Positions 2,628 to 53,418 of a stretch of DNA of 64,000 bases are shown in pieces. Within the stretch, counting starts at the first letter, position 1; every line of letters starts with the position of its first letter. The DNA lies in contig NZ_AP018712.1 of the NCBI RefSeq assembly GCF_014701195.1, forward strand, positions 1,134,501 to 1,198,500. Reading direction: 5' to 3'. The notes beneath the pieces were generated by a model. That model was given only the letters and a program-made list of their open reading frames with translations, was not told the origin of the DNA and searched no databases. The translations under genes were made by a program, and so were the position numbers. This stretch comes from Tepiditoga spiralis. Its GTDB lineage: Bacteria > Thermotogota > Thermotogae > Petrotogales > Petrotogaceae.

Positions 2628-4037
2628 TTAATAACTTTTTATTGCTAACAAAGTAGTATCATCGTGTTGTGGTGCTTCTTTTACAAAATCATCTACTGCT
2701 TCTATTATACTTTTAACTATTACATCCATATTTTCTTGTGTTTTCTGTTTTATTAATTTTTCAAGTCTTTCATATTCAAATTCATCACCAGCACCATTTC
2801 TTGCCTCTGTTATTCCATCTGTATAAGTTACAAACAAAAACGAATCCTTATAGTTGTAATTTTCAACTATTAAAGGATTTTCTTCGATGATGCCTAATGG
2901 TAATCCAGATGCTTTTGAAATTTTATATTCTCCATCTATAAATATTGGAGTATTATTATGACCTGCGTTTATTATTTTAACACTTTTTTCTTTAGAGTTC
3001 AATAGGATAAATATTGCTGTTACAAAAGTGTCATCGGGAATATTTTGAGAAAGATAATGATTTAAATATATTGCTAATTCTTCTATTGATTCGCTTTTTT
3101 CTATACGACTTTTTAAAACAGCTTTAACGGAACTCATTATTAATGCAGCAGGAACACCTTTTCCAGATACATCGGCAAGTATTCCAAAAAGTCTATCTTC
3201 ATCCAATTTTATAAGATCATAATAGTCTCCTCCAACATCAAATGCAGAACGATAAAATGCTGACGATTCTATTTTTTTTAATTTAGGAATTTCATGAGGT
3301 AAAAGAGATTCTTGTATTTGTTTTGCAAATTTTAATTGATTTGAAATTTTTTCTTGTTTTATTCGATCATTTAGATAATCCATTGTATCAAATCCAAAAG
3401 ATAATTGTTCGGTAACTGATTCCATTATTTTTTTATCTGAAGCCAAGAAAAAAGAATTATCTTTTTTTCCATATAATAAAACAAAGCCCCAAATTTTTAC
3501 ATCTGATTTTATAGGAATTAATAATATAGATTTTTCGCTTTTATTTAAAGGATCGGTTTCAGATAAAATTGTTTTGAAATTTTTTTCTTTATAAAAATAA
3601 TTTATTAAATTAGGGATAGTTTCAAAACCAGTTGTTGTTAATTCTAAAAATAAAGGTTTAAATGAAAGATCTAATGTAGAATTGTTAAACTCTCCTATTA
3701 CTACATTTTCAAAATCAACTATATCTTTTAATCTATTAACAATTTTATCAATAGTTAATCTTGGATCTTTAACAGAAAAAATGAGTTTACTTATATCTAA
3801 TATGGTTGTGAGTTCTTCATATGTTCTTGATATTTCTTCGAATTGAGCTTGTAAGATCATAGTTGTTTCTTCAATTTGAGATTTATAATTATTCATTTCC
3901 ACAATGTAATTATCTATTAAAGTATTTATTCTATTTGAAATTTCTTCATTAGAAATATTTTTTATATCATCTTTGAAAATGTTTAGAATATTATTTAATT
4001 TTAAATATATATCAATAATATTTATCACATCATTCAC
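2628..4037 (-). CDS. PP2C-type (SpoIIE/RsbU) serine phosphatase with GAF-like domain
   Basis: Metal-dependent serine/threonine phosphatase of the kind that acts on anti-sigma-factor antagonists. It has 469 aa. An N-terminal coiled-coil region (about 15-85) precedes a GAF-like sensor domain (about 90-220). The signalling linker [14 protein letters not shown] leads into the phosphatase core, with the metal-binding aspartates in FDVGGDYYD and [23 protein letters not shown], and the C-terminal [10 protein letters not shown]. Its start overlaps the end of the receiver gene at 4030-4389 by 8 nt, so the two are translationally coupled and probably form a response-regulator-controlled phosphatase. 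No STAS antagonist or anti-sigma kinase is visible nearby, so the substrate is unknown. Confidence 0.9.
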
Positions 4038-44307: not shown

Positions 44308-46101
44308 TTATAAAATATTTTTTAGGTTATTAATTTTTTCAATAGACAAATTTGTCATTTTTGATATAAACTCTATGTCAACTCCATTTTCAATCATGTT
44401 CTTTGCTATTTTTTCTTCTGGAGTTAATTCAATACCTTTATCCAAATTACTAACAATTTCAACCTCTTTTTTATCAAAAGCTATTGAAACTTTTATTATG
44501 TCATTTATTCCATGATCTTTTATCTCTTCTTCATACCTTTTTTCATTTATTTGTTTTAATCCATTTTTAGCACTGTCTTTTAAACTTTTATCTTCATCTT
44601 TATTGTATTTTTTAAACTCAATAATTATTCCTTTATCTGTTTTATCTTTTGGAATTAAAATAACATCTGCTCTTCCAAGTCCTGTTTCTCTATTACTCTT
44701 TATTATGTACTCTTCTTTTAATCCAACACTCATTCCAAGTATTAATCCATGATAAAACCTTTCCGGTTCTTTTCCACTAACATCAAAATAACTCAATGTG
44801 TTCATCGTTAAATCTTTAAATTGATCTGTAAAGGTTTTTATTCTTCCTACTTTTAAATTCAAAAGCATATTTTCAATACTTATATTCGATTCTCTCAACA
44901 TATTTCTAACTGTTTGTACAAAAAAATCTTTTACTTCTTCATTTGGTATCTTTACTTTATACATTGTTATATTATTTTTTCTTTTTTTACTCGTCCACTT
45001 TAAGTAACCACTAAATAAAAATAATGTCCAAATTGCGCTTTCACTATTTAAGTTTAAATCACCATAAACCATAGTTTCTATTATTTCGCACTCTACTTCT
45101 TCTCCATTTATTAATTTTTCTACACTATCTTTTATATTAACAGTTCCTTCTTTTATTAACTTTCTTATTAAGTAATTTCCACTCGTATTCATCCAATATG
45201 GTCTTATCTTTTTTTCATCTACTAAGTTTATTATAGAAAAAGGATTGTAAATTTCAACACCACCAAAATTATAACCATTGTACCAATCTATAACTTCACT
45301 TTCTTCATATTCAAGTTCATAATACTTCAATGTTTCTTCAACTTCTTCTTTAGTTAAACCATACTTATCATTGAATAGTTCATTCAATACAGTAGAAACC
45401 TTTAAGTTATTTACACCAGTAAAGATACTTTCTTTAGAAACTCTTGTTATACCAGTAAGAACTGCTTTTTCAAGGTATACGTTATCTTTTAATGCCATGC
45501 CAAATAAGTTACCAATTAAAGATATTATTTCATCATAGTATCCGTGTAAGTAAGCTTGTTGAATAGGAGTATCATATTCATCTATTAATATTATTACCTT
45601 TTTACCATAGTATCTTTCCATATACTTTGATAAGTTTCTTATAGAATTTTCATAATCTGCATCTAAAGCTTCTCTATCCATTATTTTATTGTATACATCT
45701 TTTTCCCTTTCATTTAATACTTCAAAAACATATTCGTGATCAATGTACAAAGTTGAAAGTTCAGAAATTAATAAATTATGCATCTTTTTTAAGTTGTTAG
45801 ATTTTAAATCTTTAAAGGTGATGTATATAACAGGATGTTTATTTAAATGTTTTTCTATTATGTTCTTTTCTTTGTATATCTTTAAATCTTTAAAGATGTG
45901 TTCATTGTTTTGAGTAATATCAAAAAAGTACTTCATCATAGATTGACTGAGAGTTTTGCCAAACCTTCTTGGTCTTGTTATTAATAAAACATTCCCACTT
46001 TCAATAACTTCTTTTATTAACAAGCTTTTATCTACAAAGTACATATCTTCTTCAATTATAGTTTTAAAATCACTTTGTCCTATTGGAAGTCTTTTTTTCA
46101 T
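44308..46101 (-). CDS. AAA-ATPase-like protein with C-terminal PD-(D/E)XK nuclease domain (copy 1)
   Basis: A protein of 597 aa from the ATG at 46101 (GAGGTG 6 nt upstream). The N-terminal AAA-ATPase-like domain (Pfam PF09820 type) has MYFVDKSLLIKEVIE near 20-34, the unusual Walker A RPRRFGKT at 43-50 and Walker B KVIILIDEYDTPIQ near 168. The C-terminal PD-(D/E)XK domain (PF08011 type) shows GRADVILIP and IIIEFKKY. The last 40 residues (NMIENGVDIEFISKMTNLS) resemble tails of Rpn/PD-(D/E)XK transposase-like proteins. The family is expanded in anaerobes and has no settled function; defence or mobile-element roles are guesses. A related gene lies at 51709-53418. Confidence 0.88.
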   Translation of the reverse strand: MKKRLPIGQSDFKTIIEEDMYFVDKSLLIKEVIESGNVLLITRPRRFGKTLSQSMMKYFFDITQNNEHIFKDLKIYKEKNIIEKHLNKHPVIYITFKDLKSNNLKKMHNLLISELSTLYIDHEYVFEVLNEREKDVYNKIMDREALDADYENSIRNLSKYMERYYGKKVIILIDEYDTPIQQAYLHGYYDEIISLIGNLFGMALKDNVYLEKAVLTGITRVSKESIFTGVNNLKVSTVLNELFNDKYGLTKEEVEETLKYYELEYEESEVIDWYNGYNFGGVEIYNPFSIINLVDEKKIRPYWMNTSGNYLIRKLIKEGTVNIKDSVEKLINGEEVECEIIETMVYGDLNLNSESAIWTLFLFSGYLKWTSKKRKNNITMYKVKIPNEEVKDFFVQTVRNMLRESNISIENMLLNLKVGRIKTFTDQFKDLTMNTLSYFDVSGKEPERFYHGLILGMSVGLKEEYIIKSNRETGLGRADVILIPKDKTDKGIIIEFKKYNKDEDKSLKDSAKNGLKQINEKRYEEEIKDHGINDIIKVSIAFDKKEVEIVSNLDKGIELTPEEKIAKNMIENGVDIEFISKMTNLSIEKINNLKNIL

Positions 46102-46118
46102 TTTCATCACCTCATTTT

Positions 46119-46277: not shown

Positions 46278-46306
46278 AAAAAACTGCCATTAGGCAGTTT
46301 TTTTTT
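46278..46306. terminator. Terminator downstream of operator-promoter copy A
   Basis: AAACTGCC (46281-46288), loop ATTA, GGCAGTTT (46293-46300), flanked by A-run and T-run, so active in both directions. Confidence 0.88.
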
Positions 46307-46564: not shown

Positions 46565-46628
46565 TTTTTATAGGTATGAAAAAAGTAATATGAAAAAAGA
46601 ACTATCAAATAGAAAAGGGGGAGTATTC

Positions 46629-48347
46629 GTGAAGAAAGTACTTGTTGTTTTAAGCGTTCTTACGCTTGTATTTTTAATGATTTCTTGTACACCTAACAAT
46701 GTACTATTTGCACCACAAGTGGATTTTGCACTTAAAAGTTTAGGAGCAGGTGGAAATCAATTTCCCGCTGGAGTAGATCTACCTGTTAATTGGAGTATTT
46801 CGACAAATGTAAAAGATGCAACTTTTGAATTTGTTGTTGATTTAAAAAAAGACGATGGAACAGTTATATTGAATGAAAAAACAACAAATAAAGATGGTTA
46901 CACAATTGATAAATCAAAGTTGGTTGCAGGAAATACGTACAAATTAAAAGTTACTGCAAATGATAAAAAAGATAAAATAATTGTTGAATCAAAAGTATTT
47001 ACATTTACTGTTGTAAGTAGTCAAATAACTTTTGAAACAACAGAAAAAATTTTTGGTGGACCAAGTTATCTTGCTCAATACTTAGGACTTAATGTACCAT
47101 TTAAATCAAATGATGGATTAGCTCATGTTTACGAATGGGCTCTTGATGTTGCTGCAAATTGGAATGAAACAGCATCAGCTACAGAAGTAACCTTAACAGA
47201 AAATAATTTTGAAAATTTTCCAATTACTTCAAATGGAAGAAAAATAACAGATGGAGTACATGTTTTATATGTTAGAATTAAAGGCAATGGGTTAATTCAC
47301 ACCTTCCCATTTATCTTTGATACAAAAGGACCTTCAGTTACAATGTTTGGTTCTCAAAGAGAAAATAATGGATACAATGTGTATGGTGGAAGCACACCAA
47401 GTGGAAAGGTTGCACTTCTCACCTATAAAGTTACAGATTATACAAATCCAATTATAAATATAGGATTAATGGATTATACAAATGGTTTTGATAATGATGC
47501 TCGTATAGTGCTTCCAGGAAAAACAAATTCTAAAGGATACTTTGGAATAAAAGTTCCTGAAAATATTTCTGGAACGTTTGTATTTAAAATGTTAATATCA
47601 AATGATACATTTAAAATAATGGATTTAAGTGGAAATGAACTTAAATTAATTGCTTTAGATGATCATTATATTCCAACAGGTGTAGAATTTAATGCTTCTG
47701 ATTTTAATAATTTTAAATTGGATCATTCATACAGAGTCTTTATGATAGCTGATGATGGAATTTATAATGAAACCATAGATATAAAATACTTTAAATTACA
47801 AGAAAGATTTGCCGATGATAAAGAACCTCAAATTTATTTAGAAACAGATAGTGCAACTGTTGATGTTAATAATCCTACATTTAAAGTTAGAGTAGTTACT
47901 AAAAATTTAAAAGATTATTTATCAACTGATGAACACTCTGTTATTGAACAAGATGTTTATAAATCAAATGGACTAAATTATTTACAAATACCATTTACGT
48001 TTGATTCAACAGCAACTATTTCAGGATTAACAGTTAATGAATTTAACTCTGATTATGAACTCGGAGGAACAGCAACTGTTGATGCTACAAATAATATTTT
48101 TGTTTATGCAGAAGGATTTACTTCAAATTCAGCATTAAACAATTCAACTGGTTCTGCAACAGATGTATTAGCAGAGTTTACAGTAACTCTTACAGGTGCA
48201 GCAACGGGAACACATAATATAAAGATTCCATATGAATCATACCTTAAATTGATAGATAAAGATGGAAAAACAATTGATGGTGTGAAGATAGATTATAAAG
48301 GCGTAAATGTTATTGTTGAAAAAGCATCAAGTTCATCTAAAAAATAA
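46629..48347 (+). CDS. Lipoprotein with Ig-like regions and a C-terminal cohesin-like domain
   Basis: A protein of 572 aa from the GTG at 46629, 5 nt after GGGGGAG; an ATG at 46590 has no ribosome site. Residues 1-20 are a lipoprotein signal peptide with C20 in LMISC, so the mature protein is lipid-anchored. Residues 25-390 are beta-rich with Ig/FN3-like spacing (VFTFTVVSSQITFET, HTFPFIFDTKGPSV). Residues about 400-565 read like a cohesin: ETDSATVDVNNPTFKVRVVT, LQIPFTFDSTATISGLTV, VLAEFTVTLTGAATGTHNI, then a strand ending VIVEKA. The next gene ends in a dockerin. Likely role: surface or periplasmic anchor that docks the protease. The domain call is by eye and needs a profile search. Confidence 0.8.
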   Translation: MKKVLVVLSVLTLVFLMISCTPNNVLFAPQVDFALKSLGAGGNQFPAGVDLPVNWSISTNVKDATFEFVVDLKKDDGTVILNEKTTNKDGYTIDKSKLVAGNTYKLKVTANDKKDKIIVESKVFTFTVVSSQITFETTEKIFGGPSYLAQYLGLNVPFKSNDGLAHVYEWALDVAANWNETASATEVTLTENNFENFPITSNGRKITDGVHVLYVRIKGNGLIHTFPFIFDTKGPSVTMFGSQRENNGYNVYGGSTPSGKVALLTYKVTDYTNPIINIGLMDYTNGFDNDARIVLPGKTNSKGYFGIKVPENISGTFVFKMLISNDTFKIMDLSGNELKLIALDDHYIPTGVEFNASDFNNFKLDHSYRVFMIADDGIYNETIDIKYFKLQERFADDKEPQIYLETDSATVDVNNPTFKVRVVTKNLKDYLSTDEHSVIEQDVYKSNGLNYLQIPFTFDSTATISGLTVNEFNSDYELGGTATVDATNNIFVYAEGFTSNSALNNSTGSATDVLAEFTVTLTGAATGTHNIKIPYESYLKLIDKDGKTIDGVKIDYKGVNVIVEKASSSSKK

Positions 48348-48362
48348 TAGGGGGGTTTATAA

Positions 48363-49769
48363 ATGAAGAAGATACTATTAACAGTACTTTTGGTACTTCT
48401 CGTAACCTTTATGCTTGCTGGTGTTTTGGAAGAATCAAATGAACTTGCAAATAGCATAAATTTAACTAACGTACCTTGGATGGCAGGTGTAAATCAATAT
48501 TTTGTTGATTTGCAAGAAAATACAGGAATTTCAAATTTAAATAGTTTAAATTTAAAAGTAAATAAATACAAATTTTTACCAGATTCATTTATTTCAAAAA
48601 AATTAAATGCTAATAAATTAACAACAAATGACGATGTTTTATGGAGTTCTAAATATGTTTATTCTTATAACGGAGATACATTACCAAGTGCATTTATACA
48701 AATTCATTCTCCAATAAAAAATCAAGGTTCACATGGTACATGTTGGGCATTTTCAACAATTGCAAGTTTAGAAAGTGCTATGCTCGTTCAAAAATCAGAT
48801 TTGAATCCTACTGATACAGCATCACCAGTAGTAGATCAAGATTCTACATATGATTTTTCTGAACAATACATGGCATACCATGATGTTGATTGGGATTTGC
48901 TTGCAGCAACAGGATATGAAACAATGCAAGAAGCAAATACAGATGTTGGAGGAAATGTTTATTTTTCGAGCTATAATTTAATAAGATATGGATATGTTGA
49001 TGAAAGTGCTATGCCTTATTCAGCATATGATGGTAATAAAGAAATATCTTGGAATGCAAAATCAAATTGGAACAGTACATTAAAAAGAGAAGTTCAAAAA
49101 ACTATATACCTTCCAGGTTATAAATATAATGAACAAAGTTATTCAGATTACATAAATTCTATAAAAGAAGCTTTAAAAAGATATGGTGCTTTATCAGTAT
49201 CTTACAGTGTCCCTAATGATTTTGGTGTTTATATTGGTGGAGTTTATGTTCCTTCAGATAGTTTTGCAAAATATACTGGTGGACATGCAGTTACTCTCGT
49301 TGGATGGATGGATATGGCTACATTAAAACAACAAACATATTCAGGAACTACAACAACTTGGGTTTCTTCTGATGCAACATGTGTAAAATGGAATGATCCA
49401 ATAACAGGAAAAAATGTTGAATCAACAGAATTTTGGTTAATAAAAAATTCTTGGGGAACAAGTTGGGGTTGGGATGGTTATTTCTTAGTTCCAATTGCAA
49501 CAAAAGAACAATTTGATAATAAAGAAATTGAAAGATGGATGATAGAAAACAATTCAATGTATGTTCCAGTTTATCAAAAAGCTTCAACAGCTGTTACTGA
49601 TTTTGATAATGATGGTGATACAGATATAGATGATTATAACGCATTAAAAACAGCAATAGAAAATTATTTAAAAGATAAAACATATGATGCAAAATATGAT
49701 ATATCAGATCCTAAAGATGGTAGATTAGATGGTAATGATATGGAAATGTTCTTTCAAAAAAATAAATAA
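48363..49769 (+). CDS. Exported papain-family (C1A) cysteine protease with C-terminal dockerin
   Basis: A protein of 468 aa. Residues 1-20 form a signal peptide without lipobox. Residues about 21-105 are a putative propeptide. The peptidase C1A domain has Q121 and C127 in NQGSHGTCWAFST, H308 in TGGHAVTLVGW and N362 in WLIKNSWGTSWGWDG, a complete papain active site. Residues 411-467 form a dockerin: two calcium-loop segments, DFDNDGDTDIDDYNAL and DISDPKDGRLDGNDMEMF, separated by a linker helix. AGGGGGG precedes the ATG, 15 nt after the lipoprotein stop. Together they form a two-gene cohesin-dockerin unit. The substrate is unknown; peptide scavenging or processing of surface proteins are both possible. 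Confidence 0.92.
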   Translation: MKKILLTVLLVLLVTFMLAGVLEESNELANSINLTNVPWMAGVNQYFVDLQENTGISNLNSLNLKVNKYKFLPDSFISKKLNANKLTTNDDVLWSSKYVYSYNGDTLPSAFIQIHSPIKNQGSHGTCWAFSTIASLESAMLVQKSDLNPTDTASPVVDQDSTYDFSEQYMAYHDVDWDLLAATGYETMQEANTDVGGNVYFSSYNLIRYGYVDESAMPYSAYDGNKEISWNAKSNWNSTLKREVQKTIYLPGYKYNEQSYSDYINSIKEALKRYGALSVSYSVPNDFGVYIGGVYVPSDSFAKYTGGHAVTLVGWMDMATLKQQTYSGTTTTWVSSDATCVKWNDPITGKNVESTEFWLIKNSWGTSWGWDGYFLVPIATKEQFDNKEIERWMIENNSMYVPVYQKASTAVTDFDNDGDTDIDDYNALKTAIENYLKDKTYDAKYDISDPKDGRLDGNDMEMFFQKNK

Positions 49770-49777
49770 TTAAACTT

Positions 49778-49813
49778 AAAAAAATAAAGCACCCATTGGG
49801 TGCTTTATTTTTT
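49778..49813 (+). terminator. Terminator of the cohesin-dockerin operon, interrupted by IS insertion
   Basis: AAAATAAAGCACCC (49781-49794), loop ATT, GGGTGCTTTATTTT (49798-49811), then T. The T-tract is part of the IS target duplication (49808-49815), so the element landed directly at the 3' end of the terminator. Confidence 0.9.
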
Positions 49814-49902: not shown

Positions 49903-51152
49903 ATGGCAAGAAGAAAAAAAGAAGAAAAAGAAGAAAGCAACATTGAAAAATTAGCAAGATTAATAGCAAGGGATCCAGAGGTAAACACAATAAAAGATGT
50001 ATATGAAAAGATAAAAGAATTAGTGGGACCGTTAATACAAGGGATGTTAGAAGCAGAATTAGAAGATGAATTAGGTTATGGGAAATATGATAAAGAAAAC
50101 AAGAAAACAGATAATTCTAGAAATGGGTACAGTTCAAAAAGAGTAAGAACAAGTGTTGGAGAAATGGAATTAAAAATACCTAGAGATAGAAAAGGTGAAT
50201 ATGAGCCATAGTACCAAAGTATAAAAAAGATATCTCAGATATTGAAGGTAGAATAATAGGTATGTACGGTTTAGGATTAAGCACAAAAGATATAGTAAAG
50301 AACGTAGAGGACATATATGGTGTAGAATTATCAGCGGAAATGATAAGTAAAATAACTAATAAAATATTACCTGAAATCAGAGAATGGCAAAGCAGACCTT
50401 TAGAAGAAATATATACTTTTATGTTTATGGATGGAATAGTGTTTAAAGTAAAAGATGATGGTGAAATAATAAAAAAGACTGCATATGTTGTACTTGGTGT
50501 AAATATAGATGGATTTAAAGAAGTACTTGGTATATATATAGGTGAAATAGAATCATCAAAATTTTGGTTAAGAGTATTAAATGATTTAAAAAATAGAGGA
50601 ATAAAAGATATATTAATAGCTTCTGTAGATGGATTAACAGGTTTCCCACAAGCAATAAAAACTGCTTTCCCAGATACTATAGTACAAAGATGTATAATAC
50701 ATCAAATAAGAAATACATTAAAATATGTTAGTTACAAAGATAGAAAAGAACTTGTTAATGATTTAAAAAAAGTATATAAAGCACCAAATAAAGATATTGC
50801 TTATTCAAACTTACAAGATTTGAAAGAAAACAAATGGACAAAATACAAATTAGCATTAGAAAGTTGGGAAAAACATTGGGAAACAATATCCCCTTATTTT
50901 GATTATGGCGATGATGTAAGAAAAATAATGTACACAACAAATGTAATAGAATCATTAAATAGACAATATAGAAAAGCAACAAAAAATAAAACATCATTTC
51001 CAAATGACGATGCATTATTGAAAATGCTTTATTTAGCAACAATAAATGCAACAAAAAGATGGACAGCTCGTTATAGAAATTGGAGCAATGTCCTAAACGA
51101 ATTATCCATCTTTTTTAATGAAAGAATTACAAAATATATCTATAATTCCTAA
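49903..51152 (+). pseudogene. IS256-family transposase, broken by a one-base deletion
   Basis: The first part (49903-50211, 102 codons) ends in GEYEP and then TAG. The second part continues in the -1 frame from 50211 (VPKYKKDISDIEGRIIGMYG). Restoring one base at CCATAGTA (expected P-x-V-P-K) gives a continuous protein of about 415 aa. The DDE residues are intact: D in FMDGIVF, D in ASVDGLTGFPQ and E in TTNVIESLNRQYRK. The -1 frame is closed by stops just upstream of 50205 and there is no slippery heptamer, so this looks like a mutation rather than programmed frameshifting. AAGGAGG precedes the ATG. Terminal repeats are still nearly perfect, so inactivation is recent. Confidence 0.88.
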
Positions 51153-51708: not shown

Positions 51709-53418
51709 TTAATTTACTTCATCAAGATACTTCAACTCTCTTCCAACAAAGACCATCACTACTTTTTTTAATGGTCCATTAAACTCTTTGTTTATAGTTT
51801 TTTCATACCTCTTTATTTGATTTACTGCTTCTTTTATCTTTACTTGATATATTTTTTCTGTATAGTCTTTCTTTTTTATGTATTTTAACTCTATTATTGC
51901 ATTGTATGGCACTTCTTCGTATCTTTTAAACATTGCTAAGTCTATGTATCCACCTTCTACTGGATACTCGCTTTTAACGTATGCCCATGGTGTTAAGATT
52001 AAATAACTAAACAGTAGCATCTTTATGTGCTTTTCACTAAAGCTTTGAAAGTCTCTGTCTGATAGTTTTTTTAATACATCTTCTATTTCATTTGCCAACG
52101 AGTTTATATTTCCATCTACTAATAACTTTCTTATTGCTATCTTTATCTTTCCTGTATCTATATAGTTTTTTGCTCTTGTTTTTATCATTTCTAAGAAGTA
52201 TTCTGAGTATATCTTTTTTATTGAATAGTTTGGTATCTTTAAGTTCATCACAAATCCTTTTGATTCTATTGTTAAAAAGCCTAAATAAAAGAGTAAGGTT
52301 TTAACATCGTCTATTTCCATCTTTCTTTCAAGGTTAAATGCTCTTGTTAACTCTTCTATTTCTGTTTTGTCTGTCATTAATATTTCATTTAAAAGGTTTC
52401 CTATTGCTTCTTTTTCATTATCTATATTATTTATTCCAACAACTTCACCAAGTTTAAATAAATTTTGAATCTTTTTATAATCACTTGCTATGTTCATATC
52501 TATTACATCTTCTGGTTTTCTTTTTTCTCTATTGTATTCAGAAATGAAGTATAAGACCATATCGCTGTTGTAAACCTTTTCACTTGCACGTTTATTGAAC
52601 ATGTATCCATTGTAGCTAAACTTCATGTCTTGTAAAATATCATCATTTATTTGATACTCTTTGAGAATATCTTTGACTTCACTTTCAGTGAATCCCATCA
52701 TTTCATTTAACTCTAATGTTGTTGACATGTTTTTTGAGATGTTGAATCCACTCGTTAAACTATCTAAGGTTATTGGTGCTACTCCTGTTATGAATAGTCT
52801 GTCTATAACAGATCGTGTTCCTTCTTTTATGACTTCATAAAATTTTCTAACAAAACCTGTTTTACTGACGATATTTTTGAATTCATCGAGTTTAAAACTC
52901 AAAAGTTCATTTGCAAAGTGATCGTATTCGTCTATTAATAAGTAGATTTTTGTTTTTAAGTTTAATTCTTCATATTTATTTAAAAAATCTCTAAATAATG
53001 TAGAAGGTTCATTTATATTTTCAATTAAATTTATATTTAATTTATAATTAGATATAAATTTAGAAATTTTTCTATAAACTTCTGCATTAAAATCAAATTT
53101 CAACTCTTCTTTACTGTCTGTATTCAATCCAGAAAAATTAAACTCTAAAATATGATAGCTACTCTTTTTAGATGTTGGATGTTTTTGTATGTACAAGTCT
53201 TTAAAGATAGTATCAAATTTATCTGAATACTTAATATCGTAGTATTTACTCATAGTGTCAAGCCATAAACTCTTTCCAAACTTTCTTGGTCTTAAAAAGA
53301 AGATGTATGATTCTGGCATATCTTCAATTATTTCTATATACTTAGTTTTATCTACATAGTAAAAATTTTCAGCTCGTATTTTTTCGAAATTTTGAAGACC
53401 ATATGGTACTTTTTTCAT
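51709..53418 (-). CDS. AAA-ATPase-like protein with C-terminal PD-(D/E)XK nuclease domain (copy 2)
   Basis: A protein of 569 aa. NFYYVDKTKYIEIIED (about 18-33), the modified Walker A RPRKFGKS (about 43-50), Walker B KIYLLIDEYDHFANEL and RLFITGVAPITLDSLTSGFN define the PF09820-type domain. The C-terminal nuclease shows YIDLAMFKRYEEVPYNAIIE followed by LKY, i.e. D...ELK. It is clearly related to 44308-46101 but diverged, so this is not a recent duplication. The two copies flank the cohesin-dockerin operon. Function unknown. Confidence 0.88.
   Translation of the reverse strand: MKKVPYGLQNFEKIRAENFYYVDKTKYIEIIEDMPESYIFFLRPRKFGKSLWLDTMSKYYDIKYSDKFDTIFKDLYIQKHPTSKKSSYHILEFNFSGLNTDSKEELKFDFNAEVYRKISKFISNYKLNINLIENINEPSTLFRDFLNKYEELNLKTKIYLLIDEYDHFANELLSFKLDEFKNIVSKTGFVRKFYEVIKEGTRSVIDRLFITGVAPITLDSLTSGFNISKNMSTTLELNEMMGFTESEVKDILKEYQINDDILQDMKFSYNGYMFNKRASEKVYNSDMVLYFISEYNREKRKPEDVIDMNIASDYKKIQNLFKLGEVVGINNIDNEKEAIGNLLNEILMTDKTEIEELTRAFNLERKMEIDDVKTLLFYLGFLTIESKGFVMNLKIPNYSIKKIYSEYFLEMIKTRAKNYIDTGKIKIAIRKLLVDGNINSLANEIEDVLKKLSDRDFQSFSEKHIKMLLFSYLILTPWAYVKSEYPVEGGYIDLAMFKRYEEVPYNAIIELKYIKKKDYTEKIYQVKIKEAVNQIKRYEKTINKEFNGPLKKVVMVFVGRELKYLDEVN

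Follow-up and report, generated by a model that had tools for sequence, protein, structure and literature searches.

A predicted two-gene cohesin-dockerin tether for a secreted C1A protease in Tepiditoga spiralis

Two adjacent genes in a 64,000-nucleotide stretch of the Tepiditoga spiralis genome (the window, whose numbering is used below) very probably specify a dedicated tether, in which a lipid-anchored lipoprotein with a cohesin would hold a secreted C1A (papain-family) protease by its dockerin. We infer the binding, its calcium dependence and the location of the pair in the cell envelope.

RESULTS

Organization of the two-gene unit

The unit and its flanks comprised the following features.

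46278 to 46303, plus strand: terminator-like hairpin (intrinsic type) 5' of the unit (hairpin scan)
46617 to 46623, plus strand: Shine-Dalgarno sequence GGGGGAG ahead of the gene 1 GTG start (sequence)
46629 to 48347 and 48363 to 49769, plus strand: two-gene unit, genes 1 and 2, with a 15-nt spacer
46629 to 48347, plus strand: gene 1, lipoprotein of 572 aa with an Ig-like N-terminal region and a C-terminal cohesin (sequence, homologue alignment, Pfam)
46629 to 46688, plus strand: lipoprotein signal peptide of gene 1, with lipobox MISC (residues 17 to 20) and predicted lipidated Cys20 (codon 46686 to 46688) (homologue comparison)
47829 to 48320, plus strand: cohesin module, residues 401 to 564 (AlphaFold, Foldseek, Pfam on the family)
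48350 to 48355, plus strand: Shine-Dalgarno sequence GGGGGG, gene 2's own site (sequence)
48363 to 49769, plus strand: gene 2, secreted C1A protease of 468 aa with a C-terminal dockerin (sequence, Pfam, homologue alignment)
48363 to 48422, plus strand: signal peptide of gene 2, residues 1 to about 20, without a lipobox (lipobox comparison)
48612 to 49577, plus strand: C1A catalytic domain, residues about 84 to 405, with Q121, C127, H308 and N362 (Pfam, alignment, Foldseek)
49590 to 49766, plus strand: dockerin module, residues 410 to 468 (Pfam Dockerin_1 on the family; family profile against the PDB)
49599 to 49634, plus strand: calcium loop 1, residues 413 to 424, DFDNDGDTDIDD, canonical 12 residues (sequence, family alignment)
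49698 to 49739, plus strand: calcium loop 2, residues 446 to 459, DISDPKDGRLDGND, 14 residues (sequence, family alignment)
49779 to 49813, plus strand: perfect hairpin with a T run at its end, probable terminator 3' of the unit (read by eye; absent from the hairpin-scan list)

The start of gene 1 was placed at the GTG codon at 46629, which has a strong Shine-Dalgarno sequence in front of it; a longer version beginning at an ATG at 46590 was rejected, having no such site. Gene 2 starts 15 nt past the stop codon of gene 1, a spacing given in the original prediction and confirmed from the coordinates 48347 and 48363. Both genes lie in one reading frame, separated by three stops. Terminator-like hairpins were located on both sides of the unit, and matches in a sigma-70 promoter scan at the unit were not above chance.

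A transposase, of the IS256/mutator type by eye and split by a frameshift into ORFs of 102 and 296 aa, lies directly 3' of the unit (49903 to 51152). Two ATPase/nuclease-like ORFs that resemble each other lie one on either side of the region (44308 to 46110 and 51709 to 53418) and carry the motifs RPRRFGKT and RPRKFGKS, their family being assigned by eye only.

The gene 1 lipoprotein and its cohesin

The lipobox signal peptide claimed for gene 1 was present, and its Cys was found in all 22 family members with an available N terminus; the Met at position -3 is not the commonest residue there. A scan of named genomes with the gene 1 lipoprotein yielded no match. When the window's own proteins were searched alone by Pfam, NCBIfam and phmmer, gene 1 gave no Cohesin match and gene 2 no Dockerin_1 match at the Pfam cut-off. 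Because both modules were divergent, homologues were gathered from 103 Thermotogota genomes. Pfam Cohesin was detected in 5 of 24 gene 1 family members (best E value, 6.7e-7), in the C-terminal region where its position was resolved. Among 27 family proteases of complete or nearly complete length, 25 matched Dockerin_1 (E values up to 1; best, 1.5e-8). Matches to PF00963 and PF00404, as originally expected, were thus obtained for the homologues but not for the modules of the window.

An AlphaFold model of residues 391 to 572, built with 24 alignment rows (pLDDT 82.9; pTM 0.80), had the jelly-roll beta-sandwich fold of Cohesin (PF00963), with predicted strands at residues 401 to 564, where a cohesin had been proposed (about 400 to 565). 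Foldseek comparison of this model with the PDB returned cohesins as 49 of the best 50 matches, with type II cohesins in the lead (E = 1.8e-7). The best matches of a gene 1 family profile among PDB sequences were type II cohesins, at a weak level (E = 0.009). These results confirmed, on the basis of the model, the cohesin identity of the gene 1 C terminus, the fold being the strongest evidence. They corrected the type, since the original prediction had read a type I dockerin layout and the cohesin fold was nearest to type II.

Weak Pfam matches to Y_Y_Y, PKD and Big among family members indicated an Ig-like N-terminal region. Such domains, together with the close spacing and frequent overlap of the two genes, would suit a lipoprotein that mainly chaperones or inhibits the protease while it is exported (as with the Ig-like chagasin-type inhibitors), with the cohesin-dockerin contact being only a pairing before release. 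This explanation was judged very unlikely, as the 25 most frequent Pfam hits to the lipoproteins included no inhibitor family and the N-terminal part varied widely in length and sequence, whereas nearly invariant columns were concentrated in the cohesin part.

The C1A protease and its dockerin

The product of gene 2 is, by its sequence, a C1A papain-family peptidase with an intact catalytic site. Pfam Peptidase_C1 matched it at 7.5e-21, and the catalytic residues Cys127, His308 and Asn362, on which the claim of a complete protease had been based, were invariant across 27 homologues together with the oxyanion Gln121. Foldseek matches of the catalytic part to papain and cathepsins, obtained with the read-through model described below, indicated a papain fold. 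The signal peptide contains no Cys.

The C-terminal segment has the layout of a type I dockerin (PF00404), with two loop-helix motifs, the calcium-ligand Asp/Asn spacing and a linker in about 60 residues. The two calcium loops and helix proposed for residues 411 to 467 were located, with the loops at 413 to 424 and 446 to 459 separated by a helix; two helices were predicted in this segment by the read-through AlphaFold model. D413, D417, D424 and D446 were invariant across 27 homologues. Loop 2 exceeds the canonical 12 residues by two, through an insertion common to most of the gene 2 family; a standard 12-residue loop was present in two homologues (DLNGDGKVNGND), and the last Asp was missing from loop 2 in four (L057, L059, L061 and L063). 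The best PDB matches of a profile of the family C termini were dockerins of cellulosomal enzymes (4.6e-8), and calmodulin-type hands were also matched. The identification of both modules was confirmed by family profiles, fold and conserved context.

Occurrence of the two modules in the genome and in the phylum

The genome, a single contig of 2.5 Mb, was searched with family profiles for both modules. These detected a single cohesin (2.1e-46) and a single dockerin (1.5e-17), the next dockerin candidate being at chance level (0.4). This search of the genome detected no multi-cohesin scaffoldin and no set of several dockerin-bearing carbohydrate-active enzymes; the sole dockerin sits on the protease. 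Since cohesin and dockerin are building blocks of cellulosomes (PMC12484212), the pair might be regarded as what is left of a multi-enzyme complex like the cellulosome, with more dockerin enzymes elsewhere in the genome. This reading was rejected as exceedingly improbable because the genome, like those of nearly all relatives, has only one cohesin and one dockerin, with no multi-cohesin scaffoldin. The original claims of a dedicated pair of one scaffold and one protease, outside a cellulosome context, were supported by these single, adjacent modules.

The same profiles were applied to the 103 Thermotogota genomes, the named relatives in the phylum being Kosmotogaceae, Mesotoga, Mesoaciditoga and Athalassotoga saccharophila. 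A. saccharophila NAS-01 (L141), a cultured species, has a homologous pair. A cohesin was detected in 27 genomes, a strong dockerin in 29 and both in 26 (Fisher's exact p = 5.6e-20 for co-occurrence, with kinship ignored). In three genomes a strong dockerin was found without a cohesin, in all cases at a contig end, and in one a cohesin was found without a dockerin. All 24 readable pairs were adjacent, with the lipoprotein immediately upstream and a spacing of -32 to +15 nt, the 32-nt overlap at the extreme being due to an over-long start. One cohesin and one dockerin were present in nearly every relative; one genome (G027) had two of each, as two adjacent pairs, and in another (G100) the two genes were at the ends of different contigs. 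The suggestion that such a pair would be unusual in an organism of this type was not borne out, as roughly one in four of the genomes has it.

The single cohesin without a dockerin (L209, positions 2845 to 3480, genome G029) was truncated, a remnant lacking an adjacent protease, and at this locus the cohesin and protease genes appear to decay together. Within the family of the source organism, the pair was present in just one further sampled genome (G043). Because its protease falls in a different subclade from that of the window, the distribution in this family points to transfer or to an old duplication followed by loss.

No neighbouring cohesin was found at loci L151 to L196, which hold C1A relatives nearly all from outside Thermotogota. 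A C1A protease with a dockerin-like C-terminal module was observed in a member of the Planctomycetota (L164, 4701 onward), with no cohesin in the neighbourhood fetched.

A further gene set, in genomes with family f9 (L070, L075 and L197 to L207), encodes a lipoprotein of roughly 520 residues, a secreted protein of roughly 900 residues with no assigned function and a lipoprotein of roughly 210 residues. The roughly 900-residue protein ends in a dockerin-like loop pair (hhalign 97%, E = 9e-12). It was rejected as part of a second cohesin-dockerin pair, the upstream lipoprotein not being cohesin-like. Because the module ahead of its loops is weakly cohesin-like (best E = 1.7e-4), this dockerin may bind either inside one copy of the protein or from one copy to another.

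Lipid anchor or dockerin in sister clades of proteases

Six protease homologues (L064, L065, L067, L069, L073 and L074) lacked a dockerin. All six had a lipobox of their own, that of L073 (LSGC) being found at residue 54 in an ORF drawn too long, and would be lipidated directly, in contrast to the dockerin-bearing protease of the window. The N terminus was readable in 26 dockerin-bearing proteases, of which none had a clear lipobox and one had an ambiguous LLAC (L044, 8124 to 9608). On a tree of the shared catalytic domain, the dockerin clade (98/91) was sister to the lipobox clade (88/92).

Given the lipobox in every member of the dockerin-less sister clade, the cohesin-dockerin pair appears to substitute for a direct lipid anchor. 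The simplest reading would be that one of the two, the cohesin-dockerin link or the lipid anchor, replaced the other in its task, in either direction. Since the two clades are sisters, the anchor swap would amount to a single, unreplicated evolutionary change, and the comparison is suggestive.

In the three cases with a scanned upstream gene (L067, L069 and L074), a beta-propeller (PQQ/BamB-like) protein, not a cohesin, was encoded directly upstream of the dockerin-less protease, which suggests a different partner system. At L064 (4158 to 6914) and L065 (689 to 3415; genome G064), the C1A protease forms part of a single lipoprotein of roughly 910 residues, and in L064 the C1A domain is followed by a clostripain (C11) domain.

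Predicted interaction of the two proteins

Docking was modelled in a single read-through chain, obtainable because the two genes share a frame, by translating the three intervening stops with NCBI table 6. The AlphaFold model of this chain had a pLDDT of 76 and a pTM of 0.63 and came with no inter-domain confidence, so that it counts neither for nor against docking; its best PDB matches by Foldseek were papain-family enzymes. In a mirror-tree test, cohesin-dockerin distances were no better correlated than those for the rest of the lipoprotein (partial correlations of 0.26 and 0.28, with the catalytic domain accounted for).

These two results would also fit a reading in which the dockerin-like tail is a calcium-binding module that stabilizes or regulates the protease, with the cohesin-like domain binding another target (a glycan or a surface protein) and adjacency serving co-expression only. 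Dockerins are EF-hand-like, and the match of the tail to calmodulin-type hands fits this alternative. We nevertheless consider it improbable, as it is exactly a cohesin and a dockerin that co-occur, strictly one to one, and the dockerin-less sister clade, which shares the catalytic domain, has its own lipobox and, where scanned, no cohesin lipoprotein upstream.

Under the favoured tether, the gene 1 product would be exported, lipidated on Cys20 and retained in the cell envelope, where its Ig-like region may act as a stalk that spaces out the terminal cohesin. The gene 2 product, a C1A protease, would be exported through an ordinary signal peptide, and its C-terminal dockerin, probably calcium loaded, would be captured by the single cohesin. 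Through this capture the protease would be kept at the envelope with its active site free. The likely role would be retention of a peptide-releasing or surface-processing protease. As a speculation, an envelope peptidase in the fermenting anaerobes of the Thermotogota may retain its products close to the cell or act in the processing of surface proteins.

DISCUSSION

The predicted tether shares with the cellulosomal type I and type II pairs of Clostridium thermocellum and Acetivibrio cellulolyticus the cohesin fold, nearest to type II in the window, and a duplicated calcium-loop dockerin at the enzyme C terminus. It differs from them in that each lipoprotein has a single cohesin and each genome a single dockerin, the enzyme is a protease and the second calcium loop is two residues longer, with no scaffoldin and no carbohydrate-active partners. 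We know of no cohesin-dockerin partner pair in Thermotogota.

Proteases docked to surface cohesins are already known, as are non-cellulosomal cohesins. A cysteine peptidase of R. flavefaciens with an X-dockerin binds ScaE (PMC3573020; reviewed in PMC12484212), and an S8 protease of C. thermocellum with a double dockerin prefers ScaD (reviewed in PMC12484212). The principle of a peptidase placed at the cell surface by cohesin and dockerin is common to these and, as predicted, to the pair described here. Those proteases are accessories of cellulosomes, that of R. flavefaciens being an NlpC/P60-type peptidase, whereas here the pair would be the whole system, lipid anchored and operon encoded, with a true C1A enzyme. 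Cohesin- and dockerin-like modules outside cellulosomes have been described in bacteria and archaea, including Archaeoglobus fulgidus and ANME archaea (Peer et al. 2009, as cited in PMC9012536). These have in common with our pair the isolated occurrence of such modules outside cellulose degradation; here, in contrast, a defined partner pair with a known enzyme type lies in a conserved operon across a bacterial phylum. No description of a lipoprotein-protease cohesin-dockerin operon or of the anchor swap in Thermotogota was found in the available text of the open-licence literature. Three points seem to be new: a dedicated operon in which a lipoprotein and a C1A protease would form a complete system, the spread of this operon in Thermotogota, and the exchange of one anchor for the other.

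As a broader and tentative proposal, of which we are rather less than persuaded, a non-covalent, calcium-dependent cohesin-dockerin link may substitute in one C1A clade for the covalent lipid anchor of its sister clade. The link would be minimal and possibly reversible, would have arisen or persisted independently of cellulosomes and could allow release and recapture of the protease.

If the tether is true, two small proteins would make up a dedicated protein link of one socket and one plug. The Thermotogota are rich in thermophiles, and their cohesin-dockerin pairs could be heat-stable linkers. Two protein families would be linked in this phylum, and non-cellulosomal cohesins would then have a concrete biological role, the anchoring of a protease where a lipid anchor would otherwise serve.
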